NCBI GenBank assembly: GCA_036567785.1
Contig: DATCTV010000033.1
Location: forward strand, 1 to 64,000
Direction of reading: 5' to 3'
Length of the DNA stretch: 64,000 bases
DNA from: Desulfomonilia bacterium
GTDB taxonomy: Bacteria; Desulfobacterota; Desulfomonilia; UBA1062
The notes under the pieces are model-generated. The model was not told the DNA's origin. It did no database searches and was given only the letters and a program-made list of their open reading frames with translations. The translations under genes were made by a program, and so were the position numbers. Position 1 is the first letter of the stretch, and each line of letters begins with the position of its first letter. Below, piece after piece: positions 9,134 through 41,985 of this stretch.

Positions 9134-9208
9134 TCTGGTTTGCTACATGATCTTGTCCATGAGTACACGTTAGAATGGTTTTACCCCAACCTGATAATTA
9201 TATATTAA
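9134..9208 (+). pseudogene. Toxin C-terminal tail fragment 3 (orphan)
   Basis: A frame opening just after the previous stop reads SGLLHDLVHEYTLEWFYPN and ends at TAA 9206-9208, 20 bases before the next immunity-type start. The HD-VHE pairing and the dense aromatic tail look like the end of a folded enzymatic toxin domain. It has no start signal, so it is not expressed as a gene. The call rests on the repeated toxin-tail/immunity layout. Confidence 0.35.
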
Positions 9209-9228
9209 TCAAAAAGGAGATACCTGCA

Positions 9229-9555
9229 ATGTGCATTGATTGTAGCAAAATGGAACAACTTGTTGCTGAGAATCAAATAAATTTGAATGTAGTTCAACAG
9301 TTATTAAGAGAGAATACAATAGAATTACATGCTGGAAATTGTTTGCCAGAGGAGATTGAGATGTATTTGGATAAAGGGAATCACTACACAATAAATACAT
9401 ATTATCAATGCAAAGTATGTAAAAAGTATTATTATATTGGATTTTGCTTATATGGGAGCCCAATTATAAAAGAAATTGATAAAATTGAGGTTGACCAAGG
9501 AATATCGCGACTAGAATGGGGATTTGTTGGTGTTCATTTTACAAATCACAAATAA
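9229..9555 (+). CDS. Small cysteine-containing putative immunity protein
   Basis: ATG 9229 is chosen because aaaaggaga precedes it by about 7 bases; the longer frame from 9175 overlaps a toxin-tail remnant in another frame. The 108-residue product has two cysteine pairs (CIDC at residues 2-5 and CKVCKKYYY in the middle) that could bind zinc. It ends in a hydrophobic and aromatic stretch. It has no signal peptide. I do not recognise the family. Like its neighbours, it follows a toxin tail closely and is probably an orphan immunity gene. Confidence 0.55.
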   Translation: MCIDCSKMEQLVAENQINLNVVQQLLRENTIELHAGNCLPEEIEMYLDKGNHYTINTYYQCKVCKKYYYIGFCLYGSPIIKEIDKIEVDQGISRLEWGFVGVHFTNHK

Positions 9556-20287: not shown

Positions 20288-21937
20288 TCACTCATAATAA
20301 GAAACTCTCTGTTTCATCACGATGCCGGATTTGAACTGTATTTCAATCGTATCTTCACTTATAACCTTGATACTCTGTAGCAGCCGCCGTACCAGATCAT
20401 TGTCAAAGTCCCTCACCTCACAGGATGCTTTTTTCAGGCATGTATCCATGTCGTTGACCCTCTGCTGAAAATTCGCAGCCTGCTTTTGTTCCTTTATAAT
20501 ATCCAGCTTCTTTTGCTTAAGCTCTTTGATCTGCTCAGCAATTTTCTGATACTGCTCGTCAAAATCATCGGTAACCGAACCCTTTTTAGCATTTTCTTCA
20601 ATCAGCGCCAGCATATCCCCTTGAAGTTTTGCGATCTGTTCATCATGCTCAGTGGGCACTTTTTTTGTGGAGTAACTTCCGATGACCTGAATCACATTTT
20701 CTCGGAAAGCACCTACAAAATCGCCCCTATTTTCGACGACACTGTTGATGGCAGTCATGACCGCTTCATTTAGAATTTCCTCTTTGAGAGTAGGGGAGTG
20801 CTGGCAGTGCTTGGTTCCATTCTTCAGGCGGTTTTCGCATCTCCATACGGCACTTTTCTGACCATTCTTCGACCAAACCTGTCTGCGGTAGGGCTGTCCG
20901 CATTCCCTGCAGATCATGATGTCGGAAAGAGCGTACTTGGAGCTGTACTTACTCTGCTCTTTCTTCGCCCTCCTGGTTGCCGCGGATTTGCATAAGCTCG
21001 CCCTTCTGGCCTTTTCCTCCTGCACCCGGTAATAAAGCTCTTTTGGAATAATGGCTTCATGATTATCCTGTACGTAATACTGCGGGACAATGCCCTGATT
21101 CTTTACCCGCTTTTTGGTGAGGAAGTCCACCGTATAGGTCTTTTGCAGAAGAGCATCACCCATATATTTTTCGTTGCTCAGCATATGGTCAATCACACTG
21201 GGGTGCCAGTCTGTCTTGCCGGTTACTGTGAATATACCTTCACTCTCCAAAATCTTGGCAATCTGGACATAGCTGCTTCCTTCAAGGAAGAGCCGGAAAA
21301 TTCGCCTGACGATTTCGGCTTCCTCCGGCACGATGATCAGCTCACCGTTTTCATCCTTGGTGTAGCCCATAAACTTGTTATGGTTCACCGAGATGATTCC
21401 GTTTTCAAAGCGTCTGACCAGTCCCCATCGGGTGTTTTCACTCAGGTTCCGGCTTTCCTCCTGTGCCTGGCTGCTTAAGATGGTAATCAACAGCTCTCCG
21501 CCGCTCTCCATGGTGTTTATGCCTTCCTTTTCGAAGAAAATGGGGATATTCCTTTCCTTGAGCTTTCGGATATTTTGTAGGCTGTCTACCGTATTTCTGG
21601 CAAACCGGCTGACGGATTTGGTGATGACCATGTCGATTTTTCCTGCCATGCAGTCCCCGATCATGGCGTTAAAATCATCACGCTTTTTGGTGTTGGTCGC
21701 GGACTTACCATCGTCGGCATAGATACCGACCAGCTTCCAGTTTGGATTGCTTTTGATTTTTTCGGTGTAATAGGATATCTGGGCTTCATAGCTGCCTTCC
21801 TGCTGTTCCAGTGTTGTGCTGACGCGGCAGTATGCAGCTACCCGCAGAGCCTTGTACTGAACCTTAACACTCCGGTCGTATTCCGGTTGAGAAGGTATAA
21901 ACGATATGTTTTTCTTTTTTGCAGTCGCTGTCTGCAT
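20288..21937 (-). CDS. Large serine recombinase (site-specific integrase)
   Basis: The 549-residue protein has the full large-serine-recombinase layout. The N-terminal resolvase domain has the nucleophile S40 in AYCRVST and the downstream SRFARNT block. A Recombinase domain lies at about 190-300, a zinc ribbon follows (CRECGQPYRRQ), and a C-terminal coiled region lies at about 430-500. Such enzymes integrate and excise elements between attP and attB without high-energy cofactors. It is the last of three in-line recombinase genes on the ICE border and is a likely catalytic partner in ICE excision. Confidence 0.93.
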   Translation of the reverse strand: MQTATAKKKNISFIPSQPEYDRSVKVQYKALRVAAYCRVSTTLEQQEGSYEAQISYYTEKIKSNPNWKLVGIYADDGKSATNTKKRDDFNAMIGDCMAGKIDMVITKSVSRFARNTVDSLQNIRKLKERNIPIFFEKEGINTMESGGELLITILSSQAQEESRNLSENTRWGLVRRFENGIISVNHNKFMGYTKDENGELIIVPEEAEIVRRIFRLFLEGSSYVQIAKILESEGIFTVTGKTDWHPSVIDHMLSNEKYMGDALLQKTYTVDFLTKKRVKNQGIVPQYYVQDNHEAIIPKELYYRVQEEKARRASLCKSAATRRAKKEQSKYSSKYALSDIMICRECGQPYRRQVWSKNGQKSAVWRCENRLKNGTKHCQHSPTLKEEILNEAVMTAINSVVENRGDFVGAFRENVIQVIGSYSTKKVPTEHDEQIAKLQGDMLALIEENAKKGSVTDDFDEQYQKIAEQIKELKQKKLDIIKEQKQAANFQQRVNDMDTCLKKASCEVRDFDNDLVRRLLQSIKVISEDTIEIQFKSGIVMKQRVSYYE

Positions 21938-21963
21938 AAAATCGCATCCTTTCTTTTTGTTCT

Positions 21964-22866
21964 TTAATGGGGAATCTCAACCTTCATGGAGAGACTGTTG
22001 ATAAATTCAAAGGTCAGTTTGCCATCATGAACTATGACCTGACGAATAACCGTGCGAAACAACTCAGCATCAAATTGGGATAAGGTATTCCTGTTTAAAA
22101 ATGACTGCTTCATTTTTTCAGTGTTGTACTCACGGTCATCTATCTGAGCCGTCCTATAAAAGGCTTTTGCCCTTTCAAAAATAAGAGCCGGAAGCTCATT
22201 GGACGAATACCGTCCTTCTGCCTCCAGCTCTTTTATTTTCTTGTCCAGTTTTACAAATTCAAAATCATTCACGACTGGTTCTTTTTTTGAGGTTCGATCA
22301 AGGCATTGCTTTCTTGCCAGAATTCGATTGGCTGCTAACTGGAAAGCCGATCCTATTTGTTCATCCGTAAGAAAGCTATTACAGCAGCAAACCTTATTTT
22401 TATCGATATATCTCTTGCATTTCCAGAAGGTCCGTTTTGTCGGTCTGTCACCATGCTCCACATATTTCCGATAAACATCACCGCATTCACCGCATCGCAG
22501 GATACCTGAAAAAACGGACTGTCGGCTCATGCTGTTATACTGCAGATTTCGTCCCAGCTTTTCACATTGCTCATTTCGACGTTTCTGTACCATGCTGAAC
22601 AGTTCTTTGTCGATTAACTGCGGATAAAACTCATCGCCCTGATATTTCACATTATCCAGAATCCTACTTACCGTTCCGTGGTACCAGTATGGCTGATTGT
22701 TAGCATTCAGAAAACCTTCTGCTGACAGCTCCTTTGCAATGACCAGCAGGGAAGCACCTGTTGCATAATCCCGAAATATCCTTTTTACTGCATCAGCTTT
22801 GGGATCATCTATCTGAATTTTACCATCCACCAGCTTATAGCCGATGGGCATATGTCTCTGTGCCAT
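21964..22866 (-). CDS. Serine-recombinase-like protein lacking the catalytic domain
   Basis: ATG 22866 is favoured by aaaggag upstream; 22875 is also possible. The roughly 300-residue protein starts straight into the Recombinase domain (MPIGYKLVDGKIQIDDPKAD), followed by a zinc ribbon (CGECGDVYRKY and WKCKR) and a C-terminal helix. The N-terminal resolvase domain with its serine is entirely absent. The gene lies between two full-length recombinases and overlaps or abuts the upstream one, so all three are co-expressed. It may act as a DNA-binding accessory subunit, similar to a directionality factor. The protein is not simply a broken copy, since start, ribosome binding site and frame are intact. 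Confidence 0.85.
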   Translation of the reverse strand: MAQRHMPIGYKLVDGKIQIDDPKADAVKRIFRDYATGASLLVIAKELSAEGFLNANNQPYWYHGTVSRILDNVKYQGDEFYPQLIDKELFSMVQKRRNEQCEKLGRNLQYNSMSRQSVFSGILRCGECGDVYRKYVEHGDRPTKRTFWKCKRYIDKNKVCCCNSFLTDEQIGSAFQLAANRILARKQCLDRTSKKEPVVNDFEFVKLDKKIKELEAEGRYSSNELPALIFERAKAFYRTAQIDDREYNTEKMKQSFLNRNTLSQFDAELFRTVIRQVIVHDGKLTFEFINSLSMKVEIPH

Positions 22867-22867
22867 A

Positions 22868-24460
22868 TCAATCATTCTCCTTTCCGGTAACCTCTGTCAG
22901 CTCCAGCTTGTTAATCAGCCGGAAGGTAATCCGGTCACTTTGTATGATCACATTCTCGACAGCCTGTGAAAACAGTTCTTCGTTGTATTTCTCAATGATG
23001 CCAGGGTAATTTTTGATAATCCCCAAAAGAAGCTCCGTTCCGGTGATTTCCTGCTCAAAGCCGTTGCTGTCCAGCAGCTGGTTCCTTTTCTTTTTAGCCG
23101 CCGCAAGCTCAAGCGTAAGGGTATTCTGGCGCCCTATAAAAACAGCAGGGTCCATGTACCCCTTCGATATCAATCGGCTCAGGATATGTCCCTGCTCTGT
23201 CAATTCCATTATCTTGTTATTACAGTCCTCAATTTCCTGTTCCTGCTGCTCATCCATCCGAAGCTTTTTCAGGACATCCAGCAGAGGGAGAAGGATTTCT
23301 TCATAGTTGCTGATCAGCTTATTCCACATAAGGATGAACACCTGCTGGAGAACATCCTCGCGTACAGCCTTCTGACTACATTTTGTTTTATCCTCGATAT
23401 GCTGGTGGCAGCACCATTGTATTTTCTCATAGGGCTGGTCGATGTAGATTTTCTGCCGACGGAAGGTACTGCCGCACTCGCCGCAAAGGATCTTTCCGCT
23501 GAAGCCATAGCGGCTCTGGCACTTTTTAGAATCAAGACCATGCTGTTTTCTGCGATATTCCATGATTTCCTTGACTGCCTCTGCCTGTTCGGGCGATATG
23601 ATCGGTTCGTGATTGTCCTCAATAAAATACCGAGGCATCTGCCCTCTGTTGTGCTTCCGCTTAAAGGGAAGTACCTCGGTCGTATAAGTTTTCTGTAACA
23701 GCAGATTACCGGAATAAATAGGATTATGCAGAATTTCCTTGATTACACTGTCATTCCACTTTTCAGCGGTACGGATGGTAGGGAAGTGTTCGTCCGTCAG
23801 TTCCTTTGCAATCACATAGGTACCTTTCCCGTTTAAATAGTCCCGGAAAATCCGGCGTACTATAGTTGCTTCTTCCTCCTGAATGACCAACTCACCCTTC
23901 TCATCCTTAGTGTAGCCATAAGCAGGACAGCTTAAAATGAACGTCCCATCCTGAAAGCGTTTTACTGCCGCCCATTTGTTGTTGGTGGAGGTGTTCTCCG
24001 CTTCTCCCTGCGCGATGGAGCTTAAAATGGACAGCATCTGCTCACTTTTTTCCGACAGGCTGTTTATGTGCTCCTTTTCAAAATAGACGGCAATTCCAAG
24101 CTCCTTCAGCCTACGGATCGCTTGTATGCTGTCCACGGTGTTTCTTGCGAAGCGGGTAACGGATTTAGTAATGATCATGTCGATCCGCCCGTCCTCACAG
24201 TCCTTCATCATCCGTAGAAAGTCATCTCTCTTCTGCAGCTTTGTTCCGCTTCGCGCTTCATCGGCATAAATTCCGACAAACTCCCAATCTTCCTGTTTCT
24301 CGATGAAGGTTTTGTAATATTCCATCTGTACAGAGAAGGAATTATGCTGCTCGCGGGAATCAGTACTGACTCTGCAATAGGCACAAACCAGCTTTTTAGG
24401 CTGTAATTGTCTGATGACCTGCTGCTTAACAGGATTAATAATTTGTACATTCTTTGCCAT
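22868..24460 (-). CDS. Large serine recombinase
   Basis: ATG 24460 is chosen because aaaggagag precedes it. The 530-residue product has the resolvase domain with S32 in AYCRVSTDS and the SVTRFARNTVDS block. It also has the Recombinase domain (YGYTKDEKGELVIQEEE onward), a zinc ribbon (CGECGSTFRRQ) and a C-terminal coiled region. It is related to but clearly distinct from the recombinase at 20288. Its stop lies next to the start of the catalytic-domain-less protein. ICEs with such recombinase trios may need more than one enzyme for excision. Confidence 0.93.
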   Translation of the reverse strand: MAKNVQIINPVKQQVIRQLQPKKLVCAYCRVSTDSREQHNSFSVQMEYYKTFIEKQEDWEFVGIYADEARSGTKLQKRDDFLRMMKDCEDGRIDMIITKSVTRFARNTVDSIQAIRRLKELGIAVYFEKEHINSLSEKSEQMLSILSSIAQGEAENTSTNNKWAAVKRFQDGTFILSCPAYGYTKDEKGELVIQEEEATIVRRIFRDYLNGKGTYVIAKELTDEHFPTIRTAEKWNDSVIKEILHNPIYSGNLLLQKTYTTEVLPFKRKHNRGQMPRYFIEDNHEPIISPEQAEAVKEIMEYRRKQHGLDSKKCQSRYGFSGKILCGECGSTFRRQKIYIDQPYEKIQWCCHQHIEDKTKCSQKAVREDVLQQVFILMWNKLISNYEEILLPLLDVLKKLRMDEQQEQEIEDCNNKIMELTEQGHILSRLISKGYMDPAVFIGRQNTLTLELAAAKKKRNQLLDSNGFEQEITGTELLLGIIKNYPGIIEKYNEELFSQAVENVIIQSDRITFRLINKLELTEVTGKEND

Positions 24461-24536
24461 AGAATTCTCTCCTTTCTTTTTGGTGGTTCTCCTGTTAGCA
24501 ACACACATTACCACACCATTTTCAGGAAAGCTAGTG

Positions 24537-25542: not shown

Positions 25543-25704
25543 TCACAAGGACGCGGCAGGACGAGAGCGAAAAAAATTCAAATCCTGCCGCGTAGTTTCT
25601 AAGATCAAACGATCTTGCTTGTTCTTCATTTTATAGCTTCTATTCGGCACTGCTTCCCGAAGCCAGGGCGACAGCATAAACGGCTTGTAGTCAGCAAGCC
25701 TCAT
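25543..25704 (-). CDS. Small basic ICE protein of 53 residues
   Basis: ATG 25704 is chosen over 25746, because gagaggtg precedes MRLADYKPFM and the longer frame has no such site. The product has a compact conserved look (MLSPWLREAVP then KMKNKQDRLI) and a basic charge. No function is known to me. It is the first gene of the recombination operon, followed at 25511 by the 126-residue protein. Confidence 0.5.
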   Translation of the reverse strand: MRLADYKPFMLSPWLREAVPNRSYKMKNKQDRLILETTRQDLNFFRSRPAASL

Positions 25705-26020
25705 AGGAATTTCACCTCTCCCAGGTTCTCTGCGAGCCGCCCCCATTGCGATGTCTGTGGCTGGGCGGAAGTAGCATTATCACTGTCCGTTTCATGGCAA
25801 AGCAGTCCACCATGGACTGTTTTATGACCAGGCTTTACCGCTCGTCGCCTTCGATACCATCGGTTCGACGAATGTCTAAGGCGGCATATATGCCGCCTTA
25901 CGCATCCGCAGGTAGTCTTAGCGTGCCCGTCAATGTCGCTGCCGCTCATCACGGCCGGACAGATCATGTATTTAAGCTGCCGGATATGAAATTTTCAAGG
26001 AGCAAAAGGGAGAATAGAAA
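25705..26020. other. Non-coding stretch upstream of the recombination module
   Basis: No gene is supported; frames here lack ribosome binding sites and look like chance. The stretch holds a 24-base perfect palindrome (25877-25900) and another smaller dyad around 25806-25824. It must contain the promoter for the recombination operon at 25704. Confidence 0.4.
25877..25900. repeat. Perfect 24-base palindrome
   Basis: The half-site taaggcggcata is followed immediately by its reverse complement, with no spacer. It lies about 175 bases upstream of the first gene of the recombination operon. It could be a protein-binding dyad (regulator or recombinase) or a short hairpin. Neither flank extends the symmetry. 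Confidence 0.7.
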
Positions 26021-26071: not shown

Positions 26072-26521
26072 TTACTTTTCCATAAGTTTTTTTAATTTAT
26101 AAAGAATTTTGACCTTTCTGTCATGGATGGTCATATAGGGAATGCCTGATTCTGCTGACAGCTGACGCTCACTTTTGCCGTTAAAAAACAGTTCAGCGAT
26201 TATCTCCTGTTCTTCCGGTGTAAGCAGCTTGAGGTAGGTCAGCATTTTCTCAATCATCACGGCCTTCACAGCGGCGTCCTCAACGCCTTCAGCATCGGCG
26301 GCGAACTGCCTGTTTTCCTCCAGAAGCCGATCAAAGGAGTCTTCCCGGCTAGGGAGGTATGTAACGGTTCCTTTGGCGTAGTCAATCCGGTATCTCTCTA
26401 TCTTCAGGTCGTATTGCTGGTAATCCATCTTTCGGTCGCTTTTTTCCAGCACCTCAATAATTTCATCGCTTAAATCGGGATATTTCTCCCGATAATTCGT
26501 CTTTTTATTAAAATTAGCCAT
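26072..26521 (-). CDS. Sigma-70 region 4-like regulatory protein
   Basis: ATG 26521 is chosen because ggagg lies about 8 bases upstream. The 149-residue product ends with a sigma-region-4-type helix-turn-helix (LTPEEQEIIAELFFNGKSER, then a recognition helix in GIPYMTIHDRKVKILYKLKK). The N-terminal half has no recognisable sigma region 2, so it is more likely a transcription regulator or partial sigma factor like those in other conjugative elements. The gene is monocistronic, framed by terminators on both sides. Confidence 0.75.
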   Translation of the reverse strand: MANFNKKTNYREKYPDLSDEIIEVLEKSDRKMDYQQYDLKIERYRIDYAKGTVTYLPSREDSFDRLLEENRQFAADAEGVEDAAVKAVMIEKMLTYLKLLTPEEQEIIAELFFNGKSERQLSAESGIPYMTIHDRKVKILYKLKKLMEK

Positions 26522-26611
26522 AGGCTTGTCCTCCATTTCGTGATTTTTAAAATCCGGAAATGAAGAACAAGTGGAGGGGAACGGCATCCGACGCAGTTTC
26601 CCTTTTTACGA

Positions 26612-26653
26612 CAAAAAAAGCCCACTTGGATACAATCCAAATGAGCTTTTTCT
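26612..26653. terminator. Bidirectional terminator upstream of the sigma-like gene
   Basis: The stem agcccacttgga (26619-26630) pairs with tccaaatgagct (26636-26647), allowing two G-U pairs. T-runs follow the stem on both strands. It blocks minus-strand transcripts that come from the XRE/riboswitch region. Confidence 0.65.
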
Positions 26654-26846
26654 AATTTTACGATTTTGTATATCCTACTTATACGTTCTGACAGTTCTAA
26701 TTGATGGCCGCATTTGCCCTCTGACCAAAACAGGCTATTTTTTAGCAGTTTACTGTTTACGATGCGGCATAAAATGAAGTCCGCTTCATCACGCCCGGCC
26801 GCTATTCAATAGCGGTCGCTGAATTTTTGTGGCATACTGAATAAGC

Positions 26847-26881
26847 ATAAAAAGACCCTCCAAGCTTGTAAGCTTGGAGGG
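26847..26881 (-). terminator. Minus-strand terminator-like hairpin
   Basis: Perfect 12-base arms (ccctccaagctt, 26856-26867, and aagcttggaggg, 26870-26881) have almost no loop and are followed on the minus strand by tcTTTTTA. The plus-strand exit has no T-run, so it acts on minus-strand RNA. Confidence 0.65.
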
Positions 26882-26897
26882 GTAGCGTTTAGGCATG

Positions 26898-26937
26898 GAA
26901 AAAGTCCCGCCAAACTCACGTTTTTTTTGTTGGCGGG
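26898..26937 (-). terminator. Minus-strand terminator-like hairpin following the 22-codon ORF
   Basis: The stem cccgccaa (26906-26913) and ttggcggg (26930-26937) is followed on the minus strand by acTTTTTCC. It begins about 28 bases after the stop of the 22-codon frame at 26965. Confidence 0.6.
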
Positions 26938-26964
26938 TTCGCCTTGTCCTGTTTCGACTTCTAT

Positions 26965-27033
26965 TTAAGCCGCATAAATACGGTCTTTTACATTAATACG
27001 TGCTAATAATTCCTGTTTATATGGTTCTGTCAT
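26965..27033 (-). CDS. Possible 22-residue leader-type peptide
   Basis: The frame encodes MTEPYKQELLARINVKDRIY followed by AA and stop, preceded by a weak ggatggtg-type site. It is followed closely by two minus-strand terminator hairpins. A short peptide followed by terminators is the layout of an attenuator, as for resistance genes in other conjugative elements. The amino-acid pattern is protein-like but unrecognised. It lies upstream of the XRE gene on the opposite strand. Confidence 0.35.
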   Translation of the reverse strand: MTEPYKQELLARINVKDRIYAA

Positions 27034-27084
27034 ATCGTTTCACCATCCAAGTAGGAACTGTAGACTGTTATTGGAGGTGAACTA

Positions 27085-27411
27085 ATGAAACTTAATAACT
27101 TTGACAGGCTTGGCATTATCCTGAAGACTGCCCGAAAAGCCAAAGGTCTTGCACGGGAGCAGCTAGCTGAAATCATAAACATAACGCCTCGCTATCTGAT
27201 GTCCATTGAAAACGAGAACAAGAAGCCAAGTTACGATGTCCTGTTCCGGCTTATCCGAGAGTTGGGCATATCTGCGGATACAATCTTTTATCCTGAAAAT
27301 CAGCATGTCGATACCAAGGTTGAGCAACTCGTGCGATCATTATATCTGTGCGATGATCGGGAACTGAAGATTGCAACTGCAACAATACAAGCACTGCTAG
27401 ACAATAAATAG
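27085..27411 (+). CDS. XRE-family regulator (HTH_3), probable ICE repressor
   Basis: The 108-residue protein has an N-terminal XRE helix-turn-helix (about residues 10-65: ILKTARKAKGLAREQLAEI, then ITPRYLMSIENENKKPSYD). The C-terminal helices may dimerise. A TTGGAGGTG ribosome binding site precedes the start. It is a paralogue of the XRE protein at 41659, and both end in the same two-helix tail. It is divergent from the sigma-like gene and directly convergent with a c-di-GMP riboswitch on the other strand, so it may be regulated by antisense RNA. Confidence 0.85.
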   Translation: MKLNNFDRLGIILKTARKAKGLAREQLAEIINITPRYLMSIENENKKPSYDVLFRLIRELGISADTIFYPENQHVDTKVEQLVRSLYLCDDRELKIATATIQALLDNK

Positions 27412-27436: not shown

Positions 27437-27476
27437 AAAAAAAGATAAACCTGCCGCGAAATAATCGGGCAGGTTT
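27437..27476 (-). terminator. Riboswitch expression-platform terminator
   Basis: Perfect 9-base arms (aaacctgcc, 27447-27455, and ggcaggttt, 27468-27476) are followed on the minus strand by ATCTTTTTTT. The hairpin begins about 15 bases after the 3' end of the c-di-GMP aptamer. The aptamer's own AAACCUG segment can pair with CAGGUUU of the terminator, so aptamer folding and termination could be coupled. The T-run ends 26 bases past the XRE stop. Confidence 0.8.
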
Positions 27477-27489
27477 CGTACAAATAATC

Positions 27490-27577
27490 ACTCAAGCAAC
27501 CAGGCTATCATAGTGTATTTCTACACACCTTAGACCCTATGGCTTTGCGTCCCTGTCTTTAGACAGGTTTGCCCTTA
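27490..27577 (-). ncRNA. c-di-GMP-I (GEMM) riboswitch
   Basis: The minus strand reads AAGGGCAAACC, a 6-base stem with a TAAA loop (CCTGTC/GACAGG), then GGGACGCAAAGCC, ATAGGGTCTAAGG, a short stem capped by GAAA, and finally ATAGCCTGGTTGC. These are the conserved blocks of the GEMM-I aptamer in the right order: GGGCAAACC, GGGACGCAAAGCC, and the AGCC-GGTT closing strand. The ligand is the second messenger c-di-GMP. A terminator follows at 27437-27476, and a promoter lies just upstream. No gene follows on the minus strand; the transcript would run antisense through the XRE gene. Confidence 0.88.
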
Positions 27578-27579
27578 AC

Positions 27580-27607
27580 ACTATAATTCAGTTTTAATTT
27601 ATAGCAA
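27580..27607 (-). promoter_or_regulatory. Sigma-A-type promoter of the riboswitch
   Basis: On the minus strand TTGCTA (27607-27602) and TATAGT (27585-27580) are separated by 16 bases, placing the transcript start about 7 bases before the aptamer. It gives the riboswitch its own promoter, independent of the MarR gene upstream. Confidence 0.65.
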
Positions 27608-27623
27608 CAACATATGTTGTTGC
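27604..27623. promoter_or_regulatory. Perfect 20-base palindrome over the -35 box of the riboswitch promoter
   Basis: The half-site gcaacaacat is followed directly by its reverse complement. It overlaps four bases of the TTGCTA -35 box, so a bound dimeric regulator would block this promoter. The XRE protein encoded nearby is a candidate, but nothing in the sequence proves it. Confidence 0.6.
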
Positions 27624-27743: not shown

Positions 27744-28190
27744 TTATTTTAAAAGAGATTTATCTAAGGAGCCAGCGAGTAAAGAAAACGTTTCGGATAT
27801 AGCCATACGTTGTTCCTGTGGGATACTGGCAAAGGCTTCTATTTCCATTGATCTGAGTTCTTCAAGTATGCAGTTTGCATATTGCGCTCCTTCTTCTGTA
27901 AGCTTTACAATCTTATTTCTACGGTCTTTGGGATTCGATTCCCTAAAAATAAAGCCCTTTTTCTCAAGTCCAGAAAGAACTAATGAAACCGTTTGCTTGG
28001 GTAAAAGTAATTTATTCCCGATTTCGATCTGAGTACAATAAGGTGTACTTGTGTTTATTACATATAATACAAACACAGTTGTTTCATTCGTGTTGTGATT
28101 CTGCGCCCAAACACGATATACATCATTAACCCGAAACCAAAACTCATAATAAATATTAATTTGTTCTATTATTTTATCTTTCTCATTCAT
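27744..28190 (-). CDS. MarR-family transcriptional regulator
   Basis: ATG 28190 is preferred over 28229, because gaaggga lies at the right distance. The 148-residue product has the MarR winged helix: an N-terminal dimer helix, the recognition part LLPKQTVSLVLSGLEKKGFI, and the wing SNPKDRRNKIVKLTEEG. It sits just downstream of the SMR transporter gene on the same strand (54 bases between). The dyad at 28597-28624 in front of the pair is the likely operator, making an autoregulated, drug-induced efflux unit. Confidence 0.88.
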   Translation of the reverse strand: MNEKDKIIEQINIYYEFWFRVNDVYRVWAQNHNTNETTVFVLYVINTSTPYCTQIEIGNKLLLPKQTVSLVLSGLEKKGFIFRESNPKDRRNKIVKLTEEGAQYANCILEELRSMEIEAFASIPQEQRMAISETFSLLAGSLDKSLLK

Positions 28191-28244
28191 ACAAATAATC
28201 CCTTCATGAATCATTGAATAACTCTGCAAATATTTATTGGCTAA

Positions 28245-28568
28245 TTAATGAGCAACACCACCTAAGTTCAGGCCTACAACCCCTGCTACAATGAGAAGTA
28301 TAGATACTACTTTTATTGCGTTGACATTTTCTTTAAAAAATAAAACTCCAATCACCGCTATAGCAACTATTCCAACTCCAGACCATATAGCATATGCTGC
28401 ACTAACCGGTATTTTTTTTAATGCTAATGCTAAAGAACCGAAACATAGGATAAATGCTATGAACATCCCTGCACTTGGTAATAGCTTTGTAAGTCCATCA
28501 GACATTTTCATCAATGTTGTTCCAGCAAGCTCAAGTACGATAGCGACTGCTAAAAAAATCCATTCCAT
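28245..28568 (-). CDS. Small multidrug resistance (SMR) family transporter
   Basis: ATG 28568 follows aggaggtatata. The 107-residue product has four membrane helices. The conserved membrane-embedded glutamate is E13 in AIVLELAGTT, and the family block PVSAAYAIWSGVG lies in the middle. SMR proteins are dimers that exchange protons for cationic drugs, guanidinium or quaternary amines. Which subtype cannot be told with confidence. The gene is followed by its MarR regulator and is cargo of the ICE. Confidence 0.9.
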   Translation of the reverse strand: MEWIFLAVAIVLELAGTTLMKMSDGLTKLLPSAGMFIAFILCFGSLALALKKIPVSAAYAIWSGVGIVAIAVIGVLFFKENVNAIKVVSILLIVAGVVGLNLGGVAH

Positions 28569-28596
28569 TATATACCTCCTAGTAATATTTATTTTC

Positions 28597-28624
28597 AATA
28601 TTAGTCCATATCTGGACTAATATT
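28597..28624. promoter_or_regulatory. Operator palindrome of the SMR/MarR pair
   Basis: Perfect 12-base arms (aatattagtcca and tggactaatatt) flank a 4-base centre, 28 bases before the SMR start. Spacing and symmetry match MarR-type operators. Confidence 0.75.
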
Positions 28625-28798
28625 AGTATAAGGTTTATTTTTTGATTTGTCAACAATAAGCATGCTTTCACGGATGGAACTCTGTAAAAGATTCTCCTAT
28701 AATACTCTTTGTCTTTTCTCTGTAGTTAAATATTCATAGAGTGGGAGGTTCTCATTCATGGTTCACCATGAACTCTCCCATAGTCCACTGAATAGTCA

Positions 28799-41658: not shown

Positions 41659-41985
41659 ATGAGTACCATATTGGATAAGGGTGAGCTGGGTTCAGCTATC
41701 CGCGCCGCGCGATTGGAGAAACACTTATCGCAGGAAGAACTGGCGGAGCTGGTCGGAATTACACCGACACACATCAAACACATCGAAAGCGAACACCGTA
41801 AGCCGTCCCTTGAACTTTTATACCGGCTGGTCCGGACATTGAACCTGTCACTGGATACGCTGTTCTTTCCCAAGCGGGAGGATGTAGCCTTTAGCAAGAC
41901 CGAGCGGCTGATGCGCCGGTGCAGTGACAAACAGCTTAGAATCCTTCACGCAACCATTGAGGCAATGTTGAAGGAAGGCGACTAA
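41659..41985 (+). CDS. XRE-family regulator (HTH_3), paralogue of the gene at 27085
   Basis: The 108-residue protein has the XRE helix-turn-helix at about residues 12-65 (AIRAARLEKHLSQEELAELV and ITPTHIKHIESEHRKPSLE). It matches the 27085 protein throughout, including the two-helix C-terminal tail (RRCSDKQLRILHATIEAMLK). A aaggagct site precedes the start. It is the only plus-strand gene in this part of the transfer region and probably controls it from the divergent promoter. Confidence 0.88.
   Translation: MSTILDKGELGSAIRAARLEKHLSQEELAELVGITPTHIKHIESEHRKPSLELLYRLVRTLNLSLDTLFFPKREDVAFSKTERLMRRCSDKQLRILHATIEAMLKEGD

Follow-up and report, generated by a model that had tools for sequence, protein, structure and literature searches.

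A c-di-GMP-I riboswitch convergent with an XRE gene

In the window, by which we mean the whole 64,000-nucleotide stretch of Desulfomonilia bacterium DNA analyzed here, a riboswitch on the minus strand separates the cargo genes of an ICE from the convergent gene of an XRE-family regulator. The cargo, read in the direction of the riboswitch, consists of a small multidrug resistance (SMR) exporter gene (28245..28598, minus strand; Pfam Multi_Drug_Res, 9.1e-30) and a gene for a MarR-family regulator (27744..28229, minus strand; Pfam MarR), which is the last cargo gene before the riboswitch. A candidate promoter for the pair, TTGACA-17-TATACT (28625..28653, minus strand), matches the consensus at 11 of 12 positions and points toward the riboswitch, and a perfect 12-bp inverted repeat at 28597..28624 lies where the cargo transcript is expected to begin and is, from this position, a candidate MarR operator. 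The XRE gene lies on the plus strand at 27085..27411 (Pfam HTH_3, 1.5e-11), encoded opposite the riboswitch as the first-pass annotation had stated. The end of the aptamer is 81 nt from the XRE stop codon, inside the 500 nt used to define an antisense-acting riboswitch for a convergent gene.

The first-pass annotation had read a good GEMM-I aptamer on the minus strand and had proposed a covariance search with the c-di-GMP-I model. That search gave a full-length match to RF01051 at 27583-27492 (minus strand; E = 1.2e-13) whose score, 78.1 bits, is above the gathering score of 35. It was the one c-di-GMP-I match in the window, and no second match was found in the 3.96-Mb genome among the 150 of 297 first-look candidates that were scored. 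The ligand-contact positions are kept, as could be read directly from AAGGGC, CAAAG, and GGTTGC, which contain what we take to be the equivalents of G20, A47, and C92 in Vc2 numbering. By covariance score and contact positions the RNA belongs to the c-di-GMP-I class, and it would be expected to bind c-di-GMP. The host genome encodes five GGDEF proteins, and so the host can make the ligand.

The aptamer is followed after 15 bases by the intrinsic terminator that the earlier reading had placed there. The hairpin, formed by AAACCTGCC and GGCAGGTTT (27447-27476), is a perfect 9-bp stem and has a T-rich tail (whole element 27438..27476, minus strand). A perfect 20-bp palindrome, GCAACAACATATGTTGTTGC, lies just upstream of the riboswitch at 27604-27623 and is a possible operator.

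Beyond the 5′ end of the XRE gene, the riboswitch strand carries three hairpins that were conserved in an alignment of the XRE-sigma region: CCCGCC...GGCGGG with a T-rich tail (26906..26937), a terminator-like hairpin formed by CCCTCCAAGCTT and AAGCTTGGAGGG and followed by TCTTTTT (26856..26881), and a further terminator-like hairpin just before the sigma gene (26616..26650). The sigma gene itself (26072..26521, minus strand) is divergent from XRE and encodes a sigma-70 region 4-like protein whose Pfam Sigma70_r4 score, 23.7 bits, is just below the cut-off; the protein is conserved at 77% in two related loci, L006 and L009. Farther along the same strand are a pemK RNA (RF02913, 70.6 bits; 25701..25780), which is also present in most relatives, and three large serine recombinases of the ICE (20288..24514), one of which (22868-24514) was identified by the Pfam Resolvase and Recombinase families and two of which (ORFs 20288-21937 and 21964-22875) were assigned by sequence. 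The earlier descriptions of the riboswitch as an orphan with no gene following it on its strand therefore need qualification at both ends: upstream, the same strand carries the SMR-MarR cargo, whose MarR ORF stops 160 nt before the aptamer, and the interval contains no detectable terminator; downstream, the sigma-factor gene follows about 1 kb on, behind the conserved hairpins.

Two further features of the window were noted. The noncoding stretch between XRE and the sigma gene (26522-27084, about 560 nt) is conserved in many ICEs, contains several hairpins, and is a candidate structured leader that has no Rfam match. A second XRE paralogue (41659-41985, plus strand), 45% identical by BLAST, has no riboswitch.

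Conservation across related elements

We searched 84,980 species genomes for similarity to the XRE protein alone. Because XRE was the sole bait, the sample of loci was not selected for riboswitches. A c-di-GMP-I aptamer adjoins XRE in 15 of the 17 loci whose XRE is at least 64% identical to that of the window; the two loci in this range that differ from the others in having no such aptamer are L008 and L021, the latter an XRE fragment. In L022 XRE has decayed to a pseudogene and the riboswitch is present. The riboswitch loci compared below also number 17, namely those 15 relatives, L022, and the window.

In 14 of these 17 loci (the window, L004-L007, L009, L011-L014, L016-L018, and L022) the riboswitch and XRE lie on opposite strands, with the riboswitch directed at the 3′ end of the gene, and in 12 of the 14 XRE is intact; L018 and L022 have kept the riboswitch despite a broken XRE. 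Two of the exceptions, L015 and L019, form one well-supported clade in which XRE is inverted, so that the riboswitch reads into it in sense; the gene is intact in L015 and broken in L019. In the third, L010, the riboswitch lies between XRE and the sigma gene, and XRE is off the path of the transcript. The first-pass annotation had considered that in related ICEs the riboswitch might usually be followed by a gene in sense. The convergent XRE of the 14 loci is the usual partner, but L010, L015, and L019 depart from it, and the antisense geometry is thus conserved but not universal. Finding the same convergent XRE in 14 of 17 loci indicates that the antisense layout has been inherited and maintained; as the 17 loci are related, they represent one maintained arrangement and not 14 independent origins.

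The surroundings of the unit are more variable. Upstream cargo includes SMR/MarR, FtsX, MFS, ABC, agrBD, and ECF/anti-sigma types, and recombinases differ between related elements, which indicates that the riboswitch-XRE unit is kept while its neighbors change. One near-invariant terminator is found across these different hosts, cargoes, and recombinases, and the ligand-contact positions are likewise near-invariant across the 17 loci. In an alignment of the 17 sequences, 97.5% of the cells in aptamer and terminator helices were paired (98% for the terminator alone). Changes on both sides of a pair occurred at 13 pairs, two of them compensatory changes in the terminator, a level that was reached in none of 500 shuffles. 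The XRE gene had dN/dS ratios of 0.05-0.23 between pairs of related loci, and by this measure it is under purifying selection.

A search for XRE relatives in the order, class, and phylum of the host recovered only the window's own two copies, a result to be expected if the gene is mobile and rare. Viral contigs contained no XRE relative, plasmid DNA gave only a 46-bp match, and phage DNA gave none. When an RNA model built from the 17 loci was run against 395 genomes of the phylum, it picked up numerous ordinary c-di-GMP-I riboswitches; with the genome of the window itself set aside, no relative of XRE or of the sigma gene accompanied any of the 29 best loci.

Source of the transcript and switching

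The first-pass annotation had proposed a sigma-A promoter, TTGCTA-16-TATAGT, directly at the riboswitch. These letters are present and match the consensus at 9 of 12 positions, but they occur at chance level: the region contains nine such sites, compared with 8.0 ± 2.9 in shuffled sequence, and in the window no candidate promoter upstream of the aptamer did better than p = 0.80. The start that this −10 element would specify, 27573, is base 11 of the aptamer, so that the 5′ strand of P1 would be missing from the RNA. Upstream promoter-like sites were better than chance in L014 (p = 0.003) and L006 (p = 0.017), and the combined score over the 17 loci (p = 0.045) was driven by these two.

Read-through from the MarR/SMR cargo operon is, from the sequence, the likelier source of the RNA. 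A search of the interval from cargo to aptamer revealed no terminator in 14 of the 15 loci checked (the window and 13 of 14 others), and so the riboswitch looks like a 3′-UTR gate on cargo read-through. In some loci the nearest cargo ORF ends very close to the aptamer (39 nt away in L004 and 18 nt in L018). In four relatives (L006, L009, L013, and L016) the cargo directly upstream is agrB with a gene for an AgrD-like peptide (MLKFI...YQPEPP), so that a quorum-sensing operon is pointed at the c-di-GMP riboswitch and, beyond it, at the antisense strand of XRE.

Three candidate pairings could oppose the terminator. The pairing of aptamer AAACCUG with terminator CAGGUUU, suggested earlier as the means by which ligand sets termination, is broken in several relatives in which the terminator is intact, and it shows no compensating changes, so we discarded it. 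Pairing of the 3′ strand of P1 with the terminator 3′ arm was also rejected; 87% of its cells were paired, with no covariation, and it is degraded in the window. The 5′ arm of the terminator, UGCCC, is predicted in most loci to pair with aptamer GGGCA before the 3′ arm emerges. GGGCA is the segment that contains the ligand-contacting G20, and the pairing can form in 15 of the 17 loci; alignment column 123 is an invariant C, though it is unpaired in the terminator. Of the three, the GGGCA-UGCCC pairing probably fits better in these predictions. Covariation was absent from every antiterminator pairing examined in the 17-locus alignment. As this includes GGGCA-UGCCC, we base the OFF direction, in which high c-di-GMP would lead to termination, on the architecture and on precedents in C. 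difficile (PMC6200980).

A proposed gate on cargo read-through and its alternatives

On balance, we favor by a little the view that the riboswitch is a conserved gate in a clostridial ICE family, controlling read-through from the cargo into the antisense strand of XRE. Riboswitch and terminator would form part of the 3′ UTR of the cargo operon, at its junction with the convergent, Orf9-like XRE gene. When c-di-GMP is high, the aptamer would fold, the terminator would form, and cargo transcription would stop before XRE. When c-di-GMP is low, the terminator would be opposed, probably through the pairing of its UGCCC with GGGCA, and polymerase coming from the cargo operon would run through XRE on the antisense strand. 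The antisense RNA, collision, or both would lower XRE, which, if it acts as the ICE repressor, should in turn relieve repression of the divergent sigma gene and of the genes for recombination. The hairpins between XRE and the sigma gene would either end the antisense RNA before it reached that gene or act as sigma attenuators. Such a device would be an AND gate, opened by induction of the cargo operon (here SMR-MarR) together with low c-di-GMP.

The antisense layout and the core idea of the first-pass annotation have thus gained support from the conservation in 14 of 17 loci, the purifying selection on XRE, and the homology of XRE to Orf9 of Tn916-type regions, for which an antisense model has been proposed; its promoter and its switch pairing are not supported. 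The shared layout suggests that c-di-GMP helps to decide when the element moves. We also advance, tentatively and with less confidence than the gate itself, a broader formulation: that this ICE family has placed its mobility under c-di-GMP by means of a 3′-UTR riboswitch that gates read-through from exchangeable cargo into the antisense strand of a repressor, the whole acting as an AND gate in which the cargo can itself be a sensor, as agrBD might be in four relatives.

The loci without antisense geometry count against the gate: in L015, whose XRE is intact and in sense, an OFF switch of this kind would have the opposite sign and increase XRE when c-di-GMP is low, and L010, L015, and L019 all keep the direction toward the sigma gene. 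They point to the main rival, in which the riboswitch chiefly controls the sigma/recombinase operon in sense through a long leader and its passage through XRE is incidental. Wherever the contig is long enough to show it, the riboswitch in each of the 17 loci is directed at the sigma/pemK/recombinase side, and no other direction is common to them all. Whatever the arrangement, the effect on sigma would have one sign, and read-through of a similar sort has also been proposed for Tn916. Yet a divergent XRE-sigma pair was inherited by 14 of the loci, so the shared direction says little by itself. Moreover, the sigma gene is about 1 kb from the riboswitch, and up to three conserved T-tailed hairpins in between should stop a sense transcript unless they are themselves regulated. 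Because those hairpins could be sigma attenuators, we keep sense control as the principal competitor, although we consider it unlikely.

A slightly less probable explanation is that the riboswitch is simply the regulated end of the cargo operon, acting in 3′-end formation, mRNA stability, or production of a short RNA, and that it shields the ICE core from cargo transcription with no specific effect on XRE. The closeness of cargo ORFs to the aptamer in several loci (within about 40 nt in L004 and L018) and the persistence of the riboswitch beside a broken XRE (L018 and L022) fit this explanation, but a plain terminator would insulate just as well, unrelated cargoes offer no reason for a ligand switch, and the riboswitch tracks XRE and not any cargo. 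We doubt strongly that the riboswitch is a relic carried along with the element, orphaned or nonfunctional. C. difficile has five class I riboswitches for which no downstream gene could be detected and which were called possibly nonfunctional (PMC6200980), and the 3′ end of the window aptamer, GGTTGCTTGA, is the most diverged of the 17; against this, the helices and terminator have covaried over XRE dS values of about 0.5-1.5, and contact positions and terminator have scarcely changed. The original proposal, in which a sigma-A promoter right at the riboswitch gives rise to a short antisense transcript, seems to us the least probable of all: the hexamers and the sites in L014 and L006 speak for it, and the chance-level score in the window and the truncated aptamer speak against it.

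The closest parallel to the gate is the regulation module of Tn916, ordered orf12 attenuator, tet(M), orf6, antisense orf9, orf7, and orf8. There, read-through from tet(M) would yield RNA antisense to orf9, relieve the repression of orf7, and set off excision; this model is published but putative, and the repressor role of Orf9 is itself only proposed (PMC7288454). The XRE protein is 39% identical over 93 aa to Orf9 of a Tn916-type region that contains tet(M), its leader, orf6, and a sigma-like gene, and it is also homologous to the Orf9 equivalent adjoining tet(S); its gene takes the place that orf9 occupies in these tet(M) and tet(S) regions. In both systems the homologous XRE/Orf9 gene converges with the cargo on one side and diverges from a sigma-like gene on the other, and a transcription attenuator would decide whether cargo transcription reaches it. 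In Tn916, however, a tetracycline-responsive leader lies upstream of the cargo, whereas the window has a c-di-GMP riboswitch downstream of it, and the ICE of the window has serine recombinases. BLASTP found no significant similarity between the sigma-like proteins of the window and of the Tn916-type region. The element may therefore work like a Tn916 module, but we do not class it as one.

Antisense-acting riboswitches are known from the SAM riboswitch at ubiG-mccBA in C. acetobutylicum and the cobalamin riboswitch at pocR in L. monocytogenes. The window riboswitch resembles these in its position at the 3′ end of a convergent gene and in the antisense RNA predicted when transcription is not terminated; it differs in that its target is an ICE regulator, its layout is kept across many elements, and its RNA probably comes from a cargo operon. 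In a computed set of antisense riboswitches, c-di-GMP was the most antisense-prone family (152 antisense versus 2,554 sense), and one c-di-GMP-I case in Paenibacillus lies opposite an XRE gene that was read as a biofilm regulator; conjugative elements were not mentioned in that set (PMC9943018). The c-di-GMP-I riboswitches of C. difficile, which include prophage ones that drive antitoxin RNAs (PMC11477304, PMC6200980), share the combination of class I aptamer and terminator; most of them are OFF switches, and a noncoding product on a mobile element is known there. The literature searched, the coverage of which was partial, contained no description of an ICE under riboswitch control of this type. 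If the gate operates as proposed, transfer of a group of clostridial ICEs would be tied by a riboswitch to the motile/sessile decision of the host, and at least some antisense c-di-GMP riboswitches would be explained as parts of mobile elements. The riboswitch-XRE loci also provide a conserved comparative test case for the long-standing, unproven antisense-orf9 model of Tn916.

Two variations on the aptamer were seen among the relatives. The aptamers of L013 (5520-5609) and L016 (4095-4184) have an A at the Vc2 G20 position (AATAGC), presumably the change known from cGAMP-preferring GEMM-Ib riboswitches, and ligand preference may differ in this branch. The element at L009 has an additional c-di-GMP-I aptamer at 9171-9262 (minus strand), the terminator of which is different.
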